From a virus: a DNA stretch of 63,198 nucleotides. The notes beneath the pieces were generated by a model. It had not been told where the DNA came from, did no database searches, and worked only from the letters and a program-made list of their open reading frames with translations. The position numbers and the translations under genes are program-made. The DNA is taken from positions 1-63,198 of IMG/VR virus record IMGVR_UViG_3300037485_001078; one strand, 5' to 3'. Below are positions 2,706 through 17,741 of the stretch, in pieces; the first letter of the stretch is position 1; each line of letters opens with the position of its first letter.

Positions 2706-5426
2706 ATGATTGTTGCTTTAGATACTGAAACTTATTACGACGACGAGGTCTCCATCAAGACGCTCGGAACGTGGCACTACCTACGTCACACAAAGGCCGA
2801 CCTGTACCTCCTATCGGTAGCCGCCGACAACGGGCTCAGATGGGTCGGACACCCCAAGGACTTCGACTGGTCGCAGATAACTGGGCCACACGTCACGTGG
2901 CTCTCCCACAACGTTTCGTTCGACTCCATGGTCATCGAGCGGCTGCAGGAGCTAGGACAAGCTCCAGACAGCATAGAGATCGCGGAGTGGGTATGCACAG
3001 CCGACATGGCTGCATACTTGGGACATAACCGGAGCCTGAAGGAAAGTGCCAACAGCCTGCTGGGAGTCGAGATGACGAAGACCGTCCGCGACAACATGAA
3101 GGGAAAGCGCTGGGAGGACATGGACGTGTTCTTTCAGGACGACGTGGTCAAGTACGCTCTCGACGACGCGGTTCATTGCCTCAACCTTTTCCTGCAGCAC
3201 GGCGACAAGTTCGTGGAGCACGAGCGTGAGATCAGCGCCATGACGCGCACGATGTGCTCACGCGGAGTTCCACTAGACGTGCCCGCTCTCGACAAGGCGA
3301 TCACCAAGCTGCAGACGGCTATCTGGCAGGCCAAGCTCGACATTCCATGGGCCGACCGCGAAGCGATTCTATCGCCGCTAGCGGTACGTGCGGAATGCGA
3401 GAAGGTTGGAATCTGGGCACCCGCGTCATTCGCCAAGGGCGACGACGAGGCGGAGCGTTGGGAGGACGAGTTCTCTCACCTCCACCCATGGATCAAAGCT
3501 GTGCGAAATTACCGACGCGGAAACAAGCACCTGAGCACACTTGAGACCATGAGAAGCCGCTGCAGGGAGGATGGGACTATGCCCTATGGATTGAAGTTCT
3601 TCGGAGCTCACACCGGGAGGGACAGCGGCGACGTCGGCTGGAACGCGCAGAACCTCCCGAAGGGCGAGGTCTTCGACGTCGATGTCCGAAGTATGATCAA
3701 AGCTCCTGAAGGATACACCTTCGCGATCGTTGACCTCAGTCAGATCGAGCCGCGTGTACTTCACTGGCTAGCGGGCGACACCAAGATGCTCGAACACATC
3801 CGCCAGTGCCCCGACTTCTACGAGGCGCAGGCGCGTGCCATGGGCCTCTGGAGCGGCGACGAGCCACTTCGTACTGATCCCAAAAAACGCCACCTGATTA
3901 AGGGCTTGAATCTTGGCTTGGGCTACGGCATGGGCGCGAAGAAATTTTCATCGGTCGCGAACATTCCGAGCGACGAGGCCGAGCGCCTCACACGCCTGTA
4001 CCGCAGCAAGAACCCACTCGTAACTAAGCTGTGGAAAGACTTGGAGGGGATATTGCGTGAGACTGCATCAGGCACAACGCCGCACGCGGAGTTCGGGATG
4101 CCTTCTGGCCGCAAGATGACATACCGAAACGTGTCGGTGGATCACGGCGGACTAACCGCGCAGATACCGCGTAAAGGCAAGTTCATGCGTCTCGGATTTT
4201 GGGGTGGTGTTATTACCGAAAATTGTTTGTCTGGAAACACTGAGGTATTAACTCAACGGGGGTGGATCAAGATTTCCGTGCTGAACTTAAATGATAAGGT
4301 ATGGGATGGAGTAGAATGGGTTACTCATCTCGGAATAAAAGAGATGGGAATCAAAAAAACCATAGATTGCCATGGGATATGTGCCACTGAAGATCATTTA
4401 TTCCTGACGGATTTGGGGTGGGTTGAAGCTAAAATAGCTTGTCAAACAGCTTGCACCGATGTGAGCTATGGTTCATATGAAACACAATACCATGGATCTA
4501 ACGGGAAAAAATATAGGGAACATGTCAGTAATTTCTTTAGCTGGGAGCAACGGGAAAAACAGCCTTTGGAACATAGTCTGCAAATGTGGGAACACGGAGG
4601 TGAAGATGGGAAAGGAGCTGACCCGAAGAGGGGGGCGAAAGTTCTGCGGGCGATCTTGCCGACTCAACAAGGAGAAGGTTCGGAACATCACCCACGGGAT
4701 GAGTCAGCATCCCGCGTTCGCCGTATGGAGCTCGATGAAATCGAGGTGTCATCGGAAAACTCATCCAGCGTACAAGAATTACGGGGGGAGGGGTATTTCG
4801 GTATGCCAAGAATGGTTAGATTCGTTCGAGAACTTCTGGGCCGATATGGGGAATGGCTATCAGACGGGACTCGACTTAGATCGAATAGACAACGAATCTG
4901 GGTACTCGAAAACAAATTGCCGTTGGGCAACACGCTCCAGAAATACCCGGAACAAGAGGAACGGGTGGAAGAACCGATCGGACATACCCGAGAATTTCTT
5001 AGAGATCGCCCAAGCGCACGGGATCAAGAGGACTACAGTGTACTACAGATTGAACAGGGGGCTTCCTTGGGACACGATTCTAAGCACGCCAGTAGATCCA
5101 AAGAACCAGTTTACGACATCCTAAACTGCGGCCCTAGAAATAGGTTTGTAGTTAGGGGGGGAGAAGGGATGCCCGCGATTATCGCACATAACTGCGTACA
5201 GGCAACGGCCCGCGACGTGTTTATGGACTGCTGCTTGCGCATCGAGGCGCAGGGATACCCAGTACTTATGAGGATCCACGACGAGGTCGTGTGTCAGGTG
5301 CCAGCTGGCGACGAGGGCAAGTGCTGCTTGGACGCCATCGTCAAGATCATGTCAACGGCTCCAGACTGGGCCGAGGGGCTTCCGCTTTCCGCCGAGGGAT
5401 CACTTTCCGACGTATACAAGAAATAA
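2706..5426 (+). CDS. Family A DNA polymerase with intein
   Basis: A 906-residue precursor. The N-terminal 3'-5' exonuclease domain shows ALDTETY (D6, E8), LSHNVSFDSM and YALDDAVH (DEDDy type). The polymerase domain shows motif A as DLSQIEPRVLHWL, motif B as KRHLIKGLNLGLGYG and motif C as IHDEVV near the C-terminus. Residues 507-829 form an intein inserted after VITEN, just before the conserved CVQATARD helix; excision would leave a 583-residue polymerase, close to phage enzymes of this type. AAGGA upstream of the ATG is a plausible ribosome binding site. It is the replicative polymerase by context. Confidence 0.93.
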   Translation: MIVALDTETYYDDEVSIKTLGTWHYLRHTKADLYLLSVAADNGLRWVGHPKDFDWSQITGPHVTWLSHNVSFDSMVIERLQELGQAPDSIEIAEWVCTADMAAYLGHNRSLKESANSLLGVEMTKTVRDNMKGKRWEDMDVFFQDDVVKYALDDAVHCLNLFLQHGDKFVEHEREISAMTRTMCSRGVPLDVPALDKAITKLQTAIWQAKLDIPWADREAILSPLAVRAECEKVGIWAPASFAKGDDEAERWEDEFSHLHPWIKAVRNYRRGNKHLSTLETMRSRCREDGTMPYGLKFFGAHTGRDSGDVGWNAQNLPKGEVFDVDVRSMIKAPEGYTFAIVDLSQIEPRVLHWLAGDTKMLEHIRQCPDFYEAQARAMGLWSGDEPLRTDPKKRHLIKGLNLGLGYGMGAKKFSSVANIPSDEAERLTRLYRSKNPLVTKLWKDLEGILRETASGTTPHAEFGMPSGRKMTYRNVSVDHGGLTAQIPRKGKFMRLGFWGGVITENCLSGNTEVLTQRGWIKISVLNLNDKVWDGVEWVTHLGIKEMGIKKTIDCHGICATEDHLFLTDLGWVEAKIACQTACTDVSYGSYETQYHGSNGKKYREHVSNFFSWEQREKQPLEHSLQMWEHGGEDGKGADPKRGAKVLRAILPTQQGEGSEHHPRDESASRVRRMELDEIEVSSENSSSVQELRGEGYFGMPRMVRFVRELLGRYGEWLSDGTRLRSNRQRIWVLENKLPLGNTLQKYPEQEERVEEPIGHTREFLRDRPSARDQEDYSVLQIEQGASLGHDSKHASRSKEPVYDILNCGPRNRFVVRGGEGMPAIIAHNCVQATARDVFMDCCLRIEAQGYPVLMRIHDEVVCQVPAGDEGKCCLDAIVKIMSTAPDWAEGLPLSAEGSLSDVYKK
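4224..5192 (+). other. Intein coding segment in the DNA polymerase (323 aa)
   Basis: The first residue is Cys (TGT 4224-4226), starting block A, CLSGNTEVLTQRGWIKI. Block B is GICATEDHLFLTDLGW with the T-x-x-H pair. The C-terminal splicing block starts PVYDILNCGPRNRFVV (from about 5104) and ends AIIAHN at 5192, followed by extein Cys at 5193. These are canonical self-splicing residues (Cys1, block B His, His-Asn, Cys+1). The middle, where an in-frame endonuclease normally sits, reads as low-identity sequence in this frame, because the endonuclease is encoded in another frame. Confidence 0.92.
4492..5124 (+). CDS. HNH homing endonuclease nested out of frame inside the intein
   Basis: A 210-residue protein shifted one base relative to the polymerase frame. 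It starts MDLTGKNIGNMSVISLAGSN and has an N-terminal zinc-ribbon-like part (CKCGNTEVKMG... KFCGRSC). The core follows: FAVWSSMKSRCHR, YKNYGGRGISVCQEW, DRIDNESGYSKTNCRWATR, the signature of the phage HNH/AP2-type endonuclease family. A C-terminal helix-turn-helix-like part (AQAHGIKRTTVYYRLNRG) ends at TAA 5122-5124. ATGs at 4468 and 4477 are also in frame; a stop at 4462 bounds the frame upstream. 4492 is preferred because family members begin there and the context is ACCATGG. It fills the gap between the two splicing half-domains. Confidence 0.85.
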   Translation: MDLTGKNIGNMSVISLAGSNGKNSLWNIVCKCGNTEVKMGKELTRRGGRKFCGRSCRLNKEKVRNITHGMSQHPAFAVWSSMKSRCHRKTHPAYKNYGGRGISVCQEWLDSFENFWADMGNGYQTGLDLDRIDNESGYSKTNCRWATRSRNTRNKRNGWKNRSDIPENFLEIAQAHGIKRTTVYYRLNRGLPWDTILSTPVDPKNQFTTS

Positions 5427-5428
5427 TT

Positions 5429-5722
5429 ATGAGCTGCGCTAAGAAAAAAGTTCTCTGTTTCCTGATCTCCGAGGATTTAGAGGTTTTCATCGGAGAGAAC
5501 ACGTGCTTGAATCCCCAACCCGCTTGCCCGCGAGAGAAAGGCGAGGGGTACGAAAAATGCAAATCAATCTGCCAACAAACCGCCCACGCCGAGGTCAACG
5601 CAATCGCGCTGGCTGGAGCAAAGGCCAAGGGTGCCAAGGCATTCGTGCTTCACAAGCGCGTGTGCTGCGACTGCCAAGATGCGCTTGAGCAGGCTGGAGT
5701 AAAGTCAGTAACGCTAGTCTAA
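5429..5722 (+). CDS. Zinc-dependent deaminase-like protein (97 aa)
   Basis: A 97-residue protein with HAEVNAIALAG (Zn-binding His and catalytic Glu) followed 20 residues later by VCCDCQDAL (C-x-x-C zinc ligands). These are the two hallmarks of the cytidine/dCMP deaminase fold. It is shorter than typical dCMP deaminases (about 150-180 aa), so it is a minimal member and the substrate is unknown. It starts 3 bp after the polymerase stop, implying translational coupling. A nucleotide-metabolism role next to the polymerase is inferred. Confidence 0.75.
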   Translation: MSCAKKKVLCFLISEDLEVFIGENTCLNPQPACPREKGEGYEKCKSICQQTAHAEVNAIALAGAKAKGAKAFVLHKRVCCDCQDALEQAGVKSVTLV

Positions 5723-5746
5723 ACACACACACACACACACACACAC
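5723..5746 (+). repeat. (AC)12 dinucleotide tract
   Basis: Twelve AC units directly after the deaminase-like stop codon and 9 bp before the primase-helicase ATG. It occupies the leader of the next gene, which has no Shine-Dalgarno sequence. It is a likely site of length variation by slippage. Confidence 0.95.
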
Positions 5747-5754
5747 CGACCCAT

Positions 5755-7938
5755 ATGAAGTTATTCTCACTAAAAAACCTAGTCACACACGAGATCCTCG
5801 AAACCGACGACCTGTACTTAGCAGGCACCGAGAACCCTCGCAACCTGCTAGACACGCCCCTCAAGACCAAGGAGGAGTACTCGAACTGGTGCGCCGACGC
5901 CACGACCAACGGCGTATTCCTCTCAGCTGTGGAGGGCGTCAATCCTCACGATCGAGTGAAGGACAGCAACCCAGCGAAACGGCTACACGGCATCATCGGC
6001 GACTACGACGCGGAGACCGCCATGGACAACATCGACAAGCTCTCGAAGAGCACCGCGTACATGCCAGCGTATATCGTCAGCACGTTTACGCCGGGCAAGG
6101 TGCGCCTGATCTGGATCTTCGAGGCTCCAGTCAACGTGCTCAACGAAGCAATCACCGAGAAGTTCCTACAGGAGCTGAACAAGGCCGTCCGTATCTCGTC
6201 GGCGTTGCCCGGATTCGACAAGAAGAGCTTCGAGCTCAACCAGTACTTCGAGATGGGCACGCAGTGGAACGCGGTGACGATTGAGGACAAGGCTCCAGTG
6301 CTTCCCTCCACGCTGCTTGAGACCTGCCTGCTGCAGGGCGCTGAGAAGGCGAAGATACAGCCCACAGACGCGCCCCTGATACCGATCGAGATCGTCGCGG
6401 CGGAGGTAGAGATCCAGTTCCCCAACCGCGTTCAGGGCACGTTCGAGATCGGAAAGAAGCAGCCCCTGTTCTGGATCAACGACGGCATCGATCGCCTCGC
6501 TTCCGTAGTCTCGGAGAACGGGATGGTGATCTATTCAGACCGAGAGGGAACCAACTTCAAGACGTGGCGTCAGATCTTGGGCGGAAAGTTCGTCGAGCGC
6601 TTCGAGCAGGAGCAGACTGGAAAGGCGGCTCAGATGTTCTGGTTCGATGGCAAGACGTACTGGACGAAGCACCACGCCGAGAACTTCGTGTACCTCGCCA
6701 AGGAGGACGCAAAGCTGCACCTGCGCGGAGCTGGGGTCAACGATCGCCCGCAGCGCGGACAGCAGGTAAGCGACGTGGAGCGTGTGCTCATTCACGTGCA
6801 GACTCAGCGCCGAGTATCCGCAGCCGTCCCCATCCTGTTCTCCCCAGACGAGACCGTGGACTTCGGTGGAGAGCGATACCTGAACATCAGCAACAAGCGC
6901 GTCACGCAACCAGCCGCCAGCGCGTCGGTGGATCAGTTTCCATGGATTCACGACTTCATTACGAACGCGTTTGACGGCGAATTTGAGGGCGTGCCAGCGT
7001 ACGAGTACTTCCTTGGATGGTTTAGGAGATTCTACGAGTCGGCGCTGAACTGTAGGCCGCTGCCGGGTCAAGTCATCATCATCGCTGGAGACGCGCACAC
7101 GGGCAAATCCTTCATCAACAAGTGGCTCATCGGCGAGGCGCTTGGTGGATCAGTTGACGCGGAGCCGCTCCTCATGAAGGAGACCAGCTTCAACAAGCAG
7201 GGCGCTGAGTGTGCTCTATGGCGCTGCGACGACGCCGCGACCGACGGCAACTGGAAGACCCGCGAGATGTTCACGAAGAGCCTCAAGCAGATGGCCGCAA
7301 ACCCTAGCCAGCTGTACCAGCCAAAGTTCCGAGACAGCGTCGAGCTCCCCTTCTTGGGGCGCGTCGTAGTTACCTGCAACGTCGATCCTGAGTCGCTGAG
7401 AATCCTCCCGACTCTTGACGGCACGATCCGCGACAAGATCATGCTATTCAAGCTGAAGGAGGGGTACCGCCCGCACTTCCATGGAACCAACTACGACAAC
7501 GAGCAGCGCATGTGCCGCGAGCTTCCCTTCTTCCTGCGTTGGCTACTCGATCGCGAGATGCCAGAGACCATCATCGATCCAGTTTTCAAACGTTTCGGAG
7601 TGAAGTCATTTCATCACGCGGAGCTAGTCACCGTGGCACAAACTACGCAGAGCGAGTACGTGTTCTCGGAGATCCTTGACGCGTGGCTCAACGCGAAGCG
7701 CGAGGAGAAGGTCAAGCAGGTCGAGGTGACGGCCACCGAGCTCAGGACGCAACTCGCGGCGGTGCTGGGTCAGGGCGCTGATCTCAGCAACTTCAAGACC
7801 GTCTCGATCGGAAAGCAGCTATCGAAGTTGATGCAGCAAGACATGGTACGAGAGCTCAAGGGCAAGCGGATGCTGGACGGCAAGGTCAAGTACCAGTTCG
7901 TCTTTACGGACGCGCCACCAGTCGAGCAGCCGTTCTAA
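5755..7938 (+). CDS. Primase-helicase (AEP-like primase plus SF3/D5-type ATPase)
   Basis: A 727-residue two-domain replication protein. The N-terminal part contains GIIGDYDAE (about residues 80-87) and PGKVRLIWIFEAP, resembling the metal-binding Asp pair and following strand of archaeo-eukaryotic-type primases in phages. The C-terminal part has Walker A GDAHTGKS (about 444-451), Walker B-like LWRCDDAAT (about 488) and sensor-like VVTCN (about 538-542), as in VirE/D5-type helicases. It would unwind the template and synthesise primers for the 2706 polymerase. Gene end is followed by a strong terminator, closing the replication module. Confidence 0.83.
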   Translation: MKLFSLKNLVTHEILETDDLYLAGTENPRNLLDTPLKTKEEYSNWCADATTNGVFLSAVEGVNPHDRVKDSNPAKRLHGIIGDYDAETAMDNIDKLSKSTAYMPAYIVSTFTPGKVRLIWIFEAPVNVLNEAITEKFLQELNKAVRISSALPGFDKKSFELNQYFEMGTQWNAVTIEDKAPVLPSTLLETCLLQGAEKAKIQPTDAPLIPIEIVAAEVEIQFPNRVQGTFEIGKKQPLFWINDGIDRLASVVSENGMVIYSDREGTNFKTWRQILGGKFVERFEQEQTGKAAQMFWFDGKTYWTKHHAENFVYLAKEDAKLHLRGAGVNDRPQRGQQVSDVERVLIHVQTQRRVSAAVPILFSPDETVDFGGERYLNISNKRVTQPAASASVDQFPWIHDFITNAFDGEFEGVPAYEYFLGWFRRFYESALNCRPLPGQVIIIAGDAHTGKSFINKWLIGEALGGSVDAEPLLMKETSFNKQGAECALWRCDDAATDGNWKTREMFTKSLKQMAANPSQLYQPKFRDSVELPFLGRVVVTCNVDPESLRILPTLDGTIRDKIMLFKLKEGYRPHFHGTNYDNEQRMCRELPFFLRWLLDREMPETIIDPVFKRFGVKSFHHAELVTVAQTTQSEYVFSEILDAWLNAKREEKVKQVEVTATELRTQLAAVLGQGADLSNFKTVSIGKQLSKLMQQDMVRELKGKRMLDGKVKYQFVFTDAPPVEQPF

Positions 7939-17013: not shown

Positions 17014-17087
17014 CGCGCGGTAGTGAAGGAGCCTCACGTTGCTCTCATACGGCAGAAACTCTGGTGCAACTCCAGACCGCGCCACCA
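17014..17087 (+). tRNA. tRNA with CAT anticodon (Met, or Ile after lysidine modification)
   Basis: A 74-nt cloverleaf. Acceptor CGCGCGG pairs with CCGCGCC except for a C-C mismatch at 1:72; D stem GTGA/TCAC; anticodon stem TTGCT/GGCAG with loop CTCATAC (anticodon CAT); T stem TCTGG/CCAGA with loop TGCAACT; encoded ACCA. The open 1:72 pair recalls initiator tRNAs, but the three G-C pairs typical of an initiator anticodon stem are missing. The T loop has G instead of the usual T at position 55, so it is atypical. The D loop is short. Confidence 0.8.
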
Positions 17088-17667: not shown

Positions 17668-17741
17668 TACCCTTTGGTGTAACGGTAGCACAGGTGACTT
17701 TGACTCATCTAGTCATGGTTCAAATCCATGAGGGGTAGCCA
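17668..17741 (+). tRNA. tRNA-Gln (TTG anticodon)
   Basis: A 74-nt cloverleaf: acceptor TACCCTT with AGGGGTA, D stem GTGT/GCAC with loop AACGGTA, anticodon stem GGTGA/TCATC with loop CTTTGAC (anticodon TTG), variable loop TAGT, T stem CATGG/CCATG with loop TTCAAAT. Discriminator G and CCA are encoded. All stems pair. It starts 9 bp after the HNH stop codon. Confidence 0.93.

Follow-up and report, generated by a model that had tools for sequence, protein, structure and literature searches.

An intein in a phage DNA polymerase whose DNA appears to encode an HNH endonuclease in a second reading frame

In canonical full-length inteins, such as the HNH intein of Synechocystis GyrB, the endonuclease is an in-frame domain. 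Fractured genes, reportedly described by Dassa and colleagues in 2009, have a free-standing endonuclease placed between the two parts of a natural split intein. Here we consider another arrangement, found in a stretch of viral DNA of 63,198 nucleotides (IMG/VR record IMGVR_UViG_3300037485_001078, positions 1 to 63,198; the whole stretch is called the window below). A family-A DNA polymerase gene is interrupted there by what is very probably a mobile intein, with an HNH homing-endonuclease gene overprinted on it in the +1 frame and translated by internal initiation, as sequence comparison and structural models suggest. This intein shares with the canonical ones its splicing blocks and an endonuclease placed between blocks B and F; it differs in that the endonuclease would be a separate protein, read in the other frame, with its own start and stop. 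The fractured genes also have the homing-endonuclease gene as a gene of its own between these blocks, and two relatives of the window intein (loci L156 and L094 of the census given below) look like this. By contrast, the window intein and 167 others are single polypeptides, overlapped by the endonuclease gene in the other frame; the halves of the window intein lie in one open reading frame (ORF), not in the separate ORFs that define a split intein. Finally, the HNH genes of phage group I introns (I-HmuI; I-PfoP3I, PMC3428280) are likewise homing genes inside a DNA polymerase gene, with splicing of RNA there and, presumably, of protein in the window.

The closest published case is recent. The ShiLan domain, together with the insertion in Pacc40 gp60, is an out-of-frame HNH gene in a phage methylase (Arsenault, Gosselin and Gogarten 2025, PMC11855218). 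As in the window, the phage gene keeps its own frame open, the distribution is disjunct and an internal start has been proposed for the HNH protein. However, the ShiLan element has no splicing motifs and is predicted to stay in the methylase, whereas the host frame in the window makes up a complete class-1 intein, an arrangement shared by well over a hundred relatives. The P45 polymerase of APSE-1 and APSE-2 with its P46 (NC_000935, NC_011551) follows the same arrangement as the window, with an intein in P45 and the HNH ORF in +1, at a different polymerase insertion site; no statement of this two-frame arrangement was found in the literature searched. The sequence-only reading of the window, made before this analysis, had taken the arrangement for one not described in this form. 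This holds in part: the ShiLan concept was in print and the inner gene of APSE-1 was already annotated, P46 inside P45, while no literature description of an HNH gene overprinted in a splicing intein was found. A 2025 preprint by the ShiLan authors' group on non-canonical actinophage inteins, which the ShiLan paper cites for overlapping reading frames in actinophages, might contain related cases.

The features of the locus are as follows.

2706..5426, + strand: ORF of the family-A DNA polymerase, interrupted by the intein; open, 906 amino acids, with a spliced product of 583 amino acids.
4224..5192, + strand: class-1 intein of 323 amino acids, polymerase residues 507-829, with Cys1, TEDH, HN and Cys+1.
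4224..4445, + strand: N-terminal splicing region, blocks A and B, host frame; predicted local distance difference test score (pLDDT) of the AlphaFold (AF2) model 94-98 at residues 1-70.
4446..5090, + strand: overprinted linker, host frame; open and predicted disordered, pLDDT mostly below 50 at residues 88-285, with an apparent ratio of non-synonymous to synonymous substitution (w) of about 2.
4462..4464, + strand: TGA that closes the HNH frame shortly above its first ATG, read in the window sequence.
4468..5124, + strand: HNH-family endonuclease gene, +1 frame relative to the polymerase, 218 amino acids; possible starts at 4468, 4477 and 4492.
5091..5192, + strand: C-terminal splicing region, blocks F and G, host frame; pLDDT 93-97, VYDILNCGPRNRFVV...HN conserved.
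5193..5195, + strand: Cys+1, the splicing nucleophile of the C-extein, read in the window sequence.

The coordinates that the sequence-only reading gave to the polymerase, the intein and the HNH frame (4224-5192; TGA at 4462; stop at 5122-5124) proved right on re-examination. So did its claims of a canonical intein, with Cys1, a T-x-x-H block B, terminal H-N and Cys+1, and of a polymerase frame open through the insertion, the ORF 2706-5426 being uninterrupted. The intein begins with C-L-S-G-N-T, has T-E-D-H as block B and VYDILNCGPRNRFVV as block F, and ends in A-H-N before the C of the extein. It is inserted between EN and C of ...GGVITEN/C-VQATARD... (the slash marks the insertion point), and so splits the catalytic core of the polymerase, just ahead of the Q-A-x-A-R-D helix; uninvaded relatives have V or I at the Cys+1 position (TEN-VVS, TEN-IVQ). 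Pfam DNA_pol_A matches the unspliced polymerase in two partial stretches and, after in silico splicing, in a single continuous one (258-578). C1, T55, H58, N323 and C+1 are kept across 30 aligned relatives of the intein. In the AF2 model both ends form a confident HINT fold (pLDDT 93-98) with about 200 disordered residues between them; used as a Foldseek query, this model matches the DnaX, gp41-1, DnaB and RecA inteins (best E 5.8e-5), and Pfam Intein_splicing is above its cut-off in one relative (L047). By its motif residues and its predicted HINT fold the segment ranks as a class-1 intein, and their conservation suggests that it splices. Its N-terminal part, 4224-4467, is A+T-rich (G+C 0.42, with 0.58 in each extein), which would fit an acquisition from another source.

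The protein of the second frame matches HNH endonucleases (PHROG 374, E 5.6e-53, and also PHROG 3377 and 2081) and is about 42-45% identical to its phage relatives across its whole length. Its stop codon, TAA at 5122-5124, sits within the ATC-CTA-AAC codons (I-L-N) of intein block F. Because its homologues share the N-terminus [M/V]HHR..D[LI]TG, and the window sequence from 4477 reads MKHNTMDLTG, the start is more likely to be 4477, favoured by homology, or 4468; the position 4492 preferred by the sequence-only reading is probably too far downstream. The AF2 model of the protein has a mean pLDDT of 84.6. There is a weak profile match to I-HmuI (1u3e), Foldseek of the model against the PDB returned no significant match, and a second structural comparison placed PacI (3ldy) first, with a Z of 6.4, not above the usual background.

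The arrangement recurs widely. Searched by tblastn with the HNH protein, phage genomes gave matches within the polymerase gene of APSE-1, -2, -3, -4, -5 and -7, and further polymerase-nested HNH genes in the Caulobacter phages GB2A, RW, RLK and KcrB and in the Shewanella phage SFCi1; in the records inspected the HNH is again in +1 and the polymerase ORF open. Viral contigs and GTDB genomes were scanned with the HNH, with the whole intein and with nuclease-free mini-inteins, the last being a less biased probe, and the census is a sample, with at most 80 loci from each scan. At least 198 distinct phage or prophage inteins were gathered in this way: among the matches listed, at least 117 carry the HNH in +1 and at least 51 a related HNH in +2, with an open host frame in both cases, 22 have no HNH and 8 have a broken host frame. 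An in-frame HNH was found in none of these matches (0 of the 168 inteins that pair an HNH with an open host frame), the mini-intein-seeded scan included. Cys1 is present in 167 of the 168, as are TxxH and an HNH stop inside the intein (167 each). Nesting in +1 persists down to about 40% identity and includes the finished genomes of APSE-1, APSE-2, GB2A and SFCi1. Within the polymerase the insertion sites are GGKL/C-EN.xQA, EN/C-xQA and the O-helix region (e.g. GKT/C, ELA/CGYGG). A second host gene is a SNF2-type helicase, identified by Pfam in L012, L022, L047, L097 and L098; L012 has two overprinted inteins, one in each gene. The +2 class comprises most of L212-L284, for example L212:4001-4897, in the polymerase O-helix region (GKT/C, SALLG/CGYGLGW). 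Two short inteins, L208:4001-4477 and L210:4001-4549, keep a truncated +2 HNH remnant, as if decaying towards mini-inteins.

In a tree of the HNH proteins the +2 class is a single clade (support 93), and 87 of the +1 members fall in one set of 95 rows (support 95), together with 6 free-standing and 2 fractured HNHs, while 6 other +1 members group elsewhere with different HNHs. Out-of-frame nesting therefore probably arose two or three times, as far as this tree tells.

An open second frame in the window was rejected as a statistical proof on its own, since double-open overlaps of 600-690 nucleotides occur there by chance: its G+C-rich genes have other such overlaps on the same strand, of 687, 627 and 603 nucleotides. 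Two of them, 629-1876 with 759-1445 (687 nucleotides) and 5689-7935 with 6345-6971 (627 nucleotides), are most likely meaningless and advise caution with any overlap in this genome. It is the family match of the second frame, together with synonymous shuffles, that marks the window overlap as real. The synonymous codons of each HNH gene were shuffled 400 times and the stops in the host frame counted. For the window HNH 8.9 host-frame stops are expected and none is observed, and none of the 400 shuffles was free of stops. It is over the family that the open frame becomes decisive: 6.5 stops are expected per sequence in the +1 class and 2.75 in the +2 class, and none was observed in 95 (+1) and 28 (+2) clusters. 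Open status was itself the rule of inclusion, a rule that excluded just 8 of the 176 interrupted or nuclease-bearing inteins. The joint log10 P for zero stops is about -236 (+1) and -50 (+2), with a floor of 1/400 for each cluster and clusters at 80% identity taken as independent, though they are not fully so. In 72 free-standing HNH relatives the corresponding frame holds a mean of 17 stops, and none of the 72 is free of them. Stops in the polymerase frame of homologues are restricted to a handful of loci; those examined closely are mostly split inteins, with two separately started halves.

Selection tells the two frames apart. The median w is 0.11 in the HNH frame of the +1 class (32 pairs) and 0.10 in that of the +2 class (69 pairs), and 0.09 (+1) and 0.12 (+2) in the splicing ends read in the host frame; inside the overlap, the host frame reaches 2.0 (+1) and 1.5 (+2), as is usual where selection acts on the other frame. 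In every pair, 32 of 32 and 69 of 69, w is lower in the HNH frame than in the host frame, the pairs being 72-96% identical and non-independent. These ratios, close to 0.1 in the HNH frame and in the splicing ends, indicate that the nuclease and the splicing protein are both maintained, with a linker constrained only to stay open. The proposal that the same DNA serves two functions in two frames, made from the window alone, is thus borne out by the 168 open-frame inteins, by these frame-specific tests and by the predicted HINT fold with its disordered middle; the same insertion in the same +1 frame was found in at least 117 distinct inteins.

Such an element might work as follows. Ribosomes in the polymerase frame would make a 906-residue precursor, of which the HINT halves, to judge from the conserved catalytic residues and the model, would fold together over the disordered linker of some 200 residues and splice out, leaving a polymerase of 583 residues. 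Other ribosomes would initiate internally on this mRNA, near 4477 or 4468, and yield a separate HNH protein of about 215 residues. This protein may cut intein-free polymerase genes, and repair would then copy the whole element in. Selection would act on the host frame for openness and for the two splicing ends, and on the HNH frame for its protein sequence. The simplest reason for the HNH never being in frame would be that a complete gene, if inserted in frame, would truncate the polymerase at the stop that it carries.

How the HNH protein would be expressed is where the strongest rival comes in. Programmed frameshifting from the polymerase frame could make the HNH as a fusion with the N-extein and the N-terminal half of the intein, and in many loci the HNH ORF is indeed open for a few codons above its start. 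We hold this to be unlikely. An in-frame stop lies near the HNH start, at a median of 12 codons above DLTG, directly before the start in L161, L166 and L047 and one codon away in the window, which makes internal initiation the best reading: no consistent window is left for a shift. Moreover, no single shift could account for HNHs in both alternative frames, their start codons align at the conserved N-terminus, and the +1 class has strong pairing with the anti-Shine-Dalgarno sequence at the start (mean -5.9 vs a background of -2.65 kcal/mol, p 4e-27), a signal that arises from the GAR-GGN-TGG codons for the conserved intein residues E-G-W. No sigma-70 promoter for the HNH gene was found inside the intein on the + strand.

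A host frame that is translated and never spliced, with the linker looped out and tolerated as in the ShiLan methylase insertion, has the merit that such elements exist (PMC11855218). It is somewhat less probable still: the splicing residues are conserved over 168 inteins, where ShiLan has no splicing motifs, w is about 0.1 in the splicing ends, the HINT model is confident, and the insertion would leave the catalytic core split just before the Q-A-x-A-R-D helix. Two last explanations are negligible. A pair of compensating indels masking an ordinary in-frame HNH intein, for which no point was found, is ruled out by homologues with the same relative frame in at least 117 distinct inteins, finished phage genomes among them; a group I or II intron removed from the RNA, its host frame open by chance, would suit the habit of phage group I introns of housing HNH genes, yet the window has no Rfam intron match at the gathering threshold (an absence that is not proof), the host frame is stop-free in all unsplit members and the intein blocks are conserved at the protein level.

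To be sure, several points weigh against a mobile, splicing intein with an internally initiated nuclease. Splicing, HNH translation, cleavage of empty alleles and homing are all steps that we infer. NCBIfam intein_Nterm (TIGR01445) gives the window intein 18.3 bits, with a cut-off of 24.5. The Shine-Dalgarno signal of the +1 class is partly forced by the E-G-W codons, and so depends on the intein, and the three candidate starts of the window pair weakly, at +0.4 to -2.5 kcal/mol. The first His of the canonical HNH motif is absent, replaced by an invariant Arg139 in LDRIDN (37-sequence alignment), so the window nuclease, on this alignment, is a variant enzyme of the HNH superfamily rather than a canonical one. 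The LDRIDN family must then use another mode of catalysis, perhaps that of PacI-type enzymes, a D-R pair being known for PacI. As for homing, inteins are far more alike than exteins in some pairs (96% vs 71% in L222/L233; 85% vs 55% in L122/L136). Pairs selected on the intein were rejected as evidence by themselves, the choice being biased, and when pairs were selected on the extein instead, intein identity was in modest excess, 45 to 27. Homing is, on these comparisons, supported by individual pairs more than by the average.

The link with split inteins deserves attention. In L156 and L094 a stop closes the N-half, next comes the HNH, and the ATG of the C-half overlaps the HNH stop (ATGA). 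These polymerase split inteins with the HNH between their halves span L156:4001-4966 and L094:3735-4710, the ATGA being as in translational coupling. The halves of L156 still share a frame, with the HNH in +1 and five stops in the host frame. The HNHs of the two loci stand at separate places inside the +1 tree, the support around L094 being locally weak. At a third polymerase site, SGRWSG/C...HN/SDGINMQNLP, L014 and L108 have an apparent split intein and an overprinted +1 intein in the same gene. Apparent split inteins with an HNH at the SGRWSG/C site lie at L014:136-1142, L108:1287-2275, L262:3087-4102 and L274:2775-3733, and the L262 and L274 polymerases have a +2 overprinted intein beside theirs. 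At the same site, here SGRYSG/C, L196:4472-5075 and L278:3517-4120 are apparent split mini-inteins, with no nuclease between the halves. The tree position of L156 and L094 and the double carriage in L014 and L108 indicate that the overprinted and fractured states are evolutionary neighbours. For L156 and L094 their place in the tree favours the direction from overprinted to split; a split state is one possible route by which a host gene first took in a free-standing HNH, with its many host-frame stops.

Elsewhere in the window, a (CA)n run occupies 5724-5745, between a small Cys-rich ORF (stop near 5722) and a DUF5906-domain gene at 5755, and there are two phage tRNA genes, tRNA-Met (CAT) at 17014-17087 and tRNA-Gln (TTG) at 17668-17741.

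An HNH gene overprinted in an intein is a real, and apparently seldom described, means by which a selfish nuclease rides in an essential gene. We lean, by a little, towards the wider view that these phage polymerase and helicase inteins form a distinct and widespread class, in which a complete endonuclease gene is always overprinted in an alternative frame, with at least two to three independent origins, and which neighbours split inteins in evolution, host-frame stops and a start for the C-half converting one into the other. The class stays hidden because both annotation pipelines and authors recognise an intein endonuclease by its lying in the 'same frame'; the intein then seems to have unique junk in its middle, and the nuclease is often not called. 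As a case in point, inteins were ruled out in Felix O1 since the HNH genes were out of frame (PMC3185647). The family also offers a large natural set of same-strand overprinted genes, with a clear function on both sides and one frame that need only stay open, and for those who engineer inteins there is practical interest in the roughly 200 arbitrary disordered residues that separate the halves. The origin of split inteins becomes testable too: mini-inteins, overprinted and fractured ones all belong to one family, and two of these states even share a gene, as in L014 and L108.
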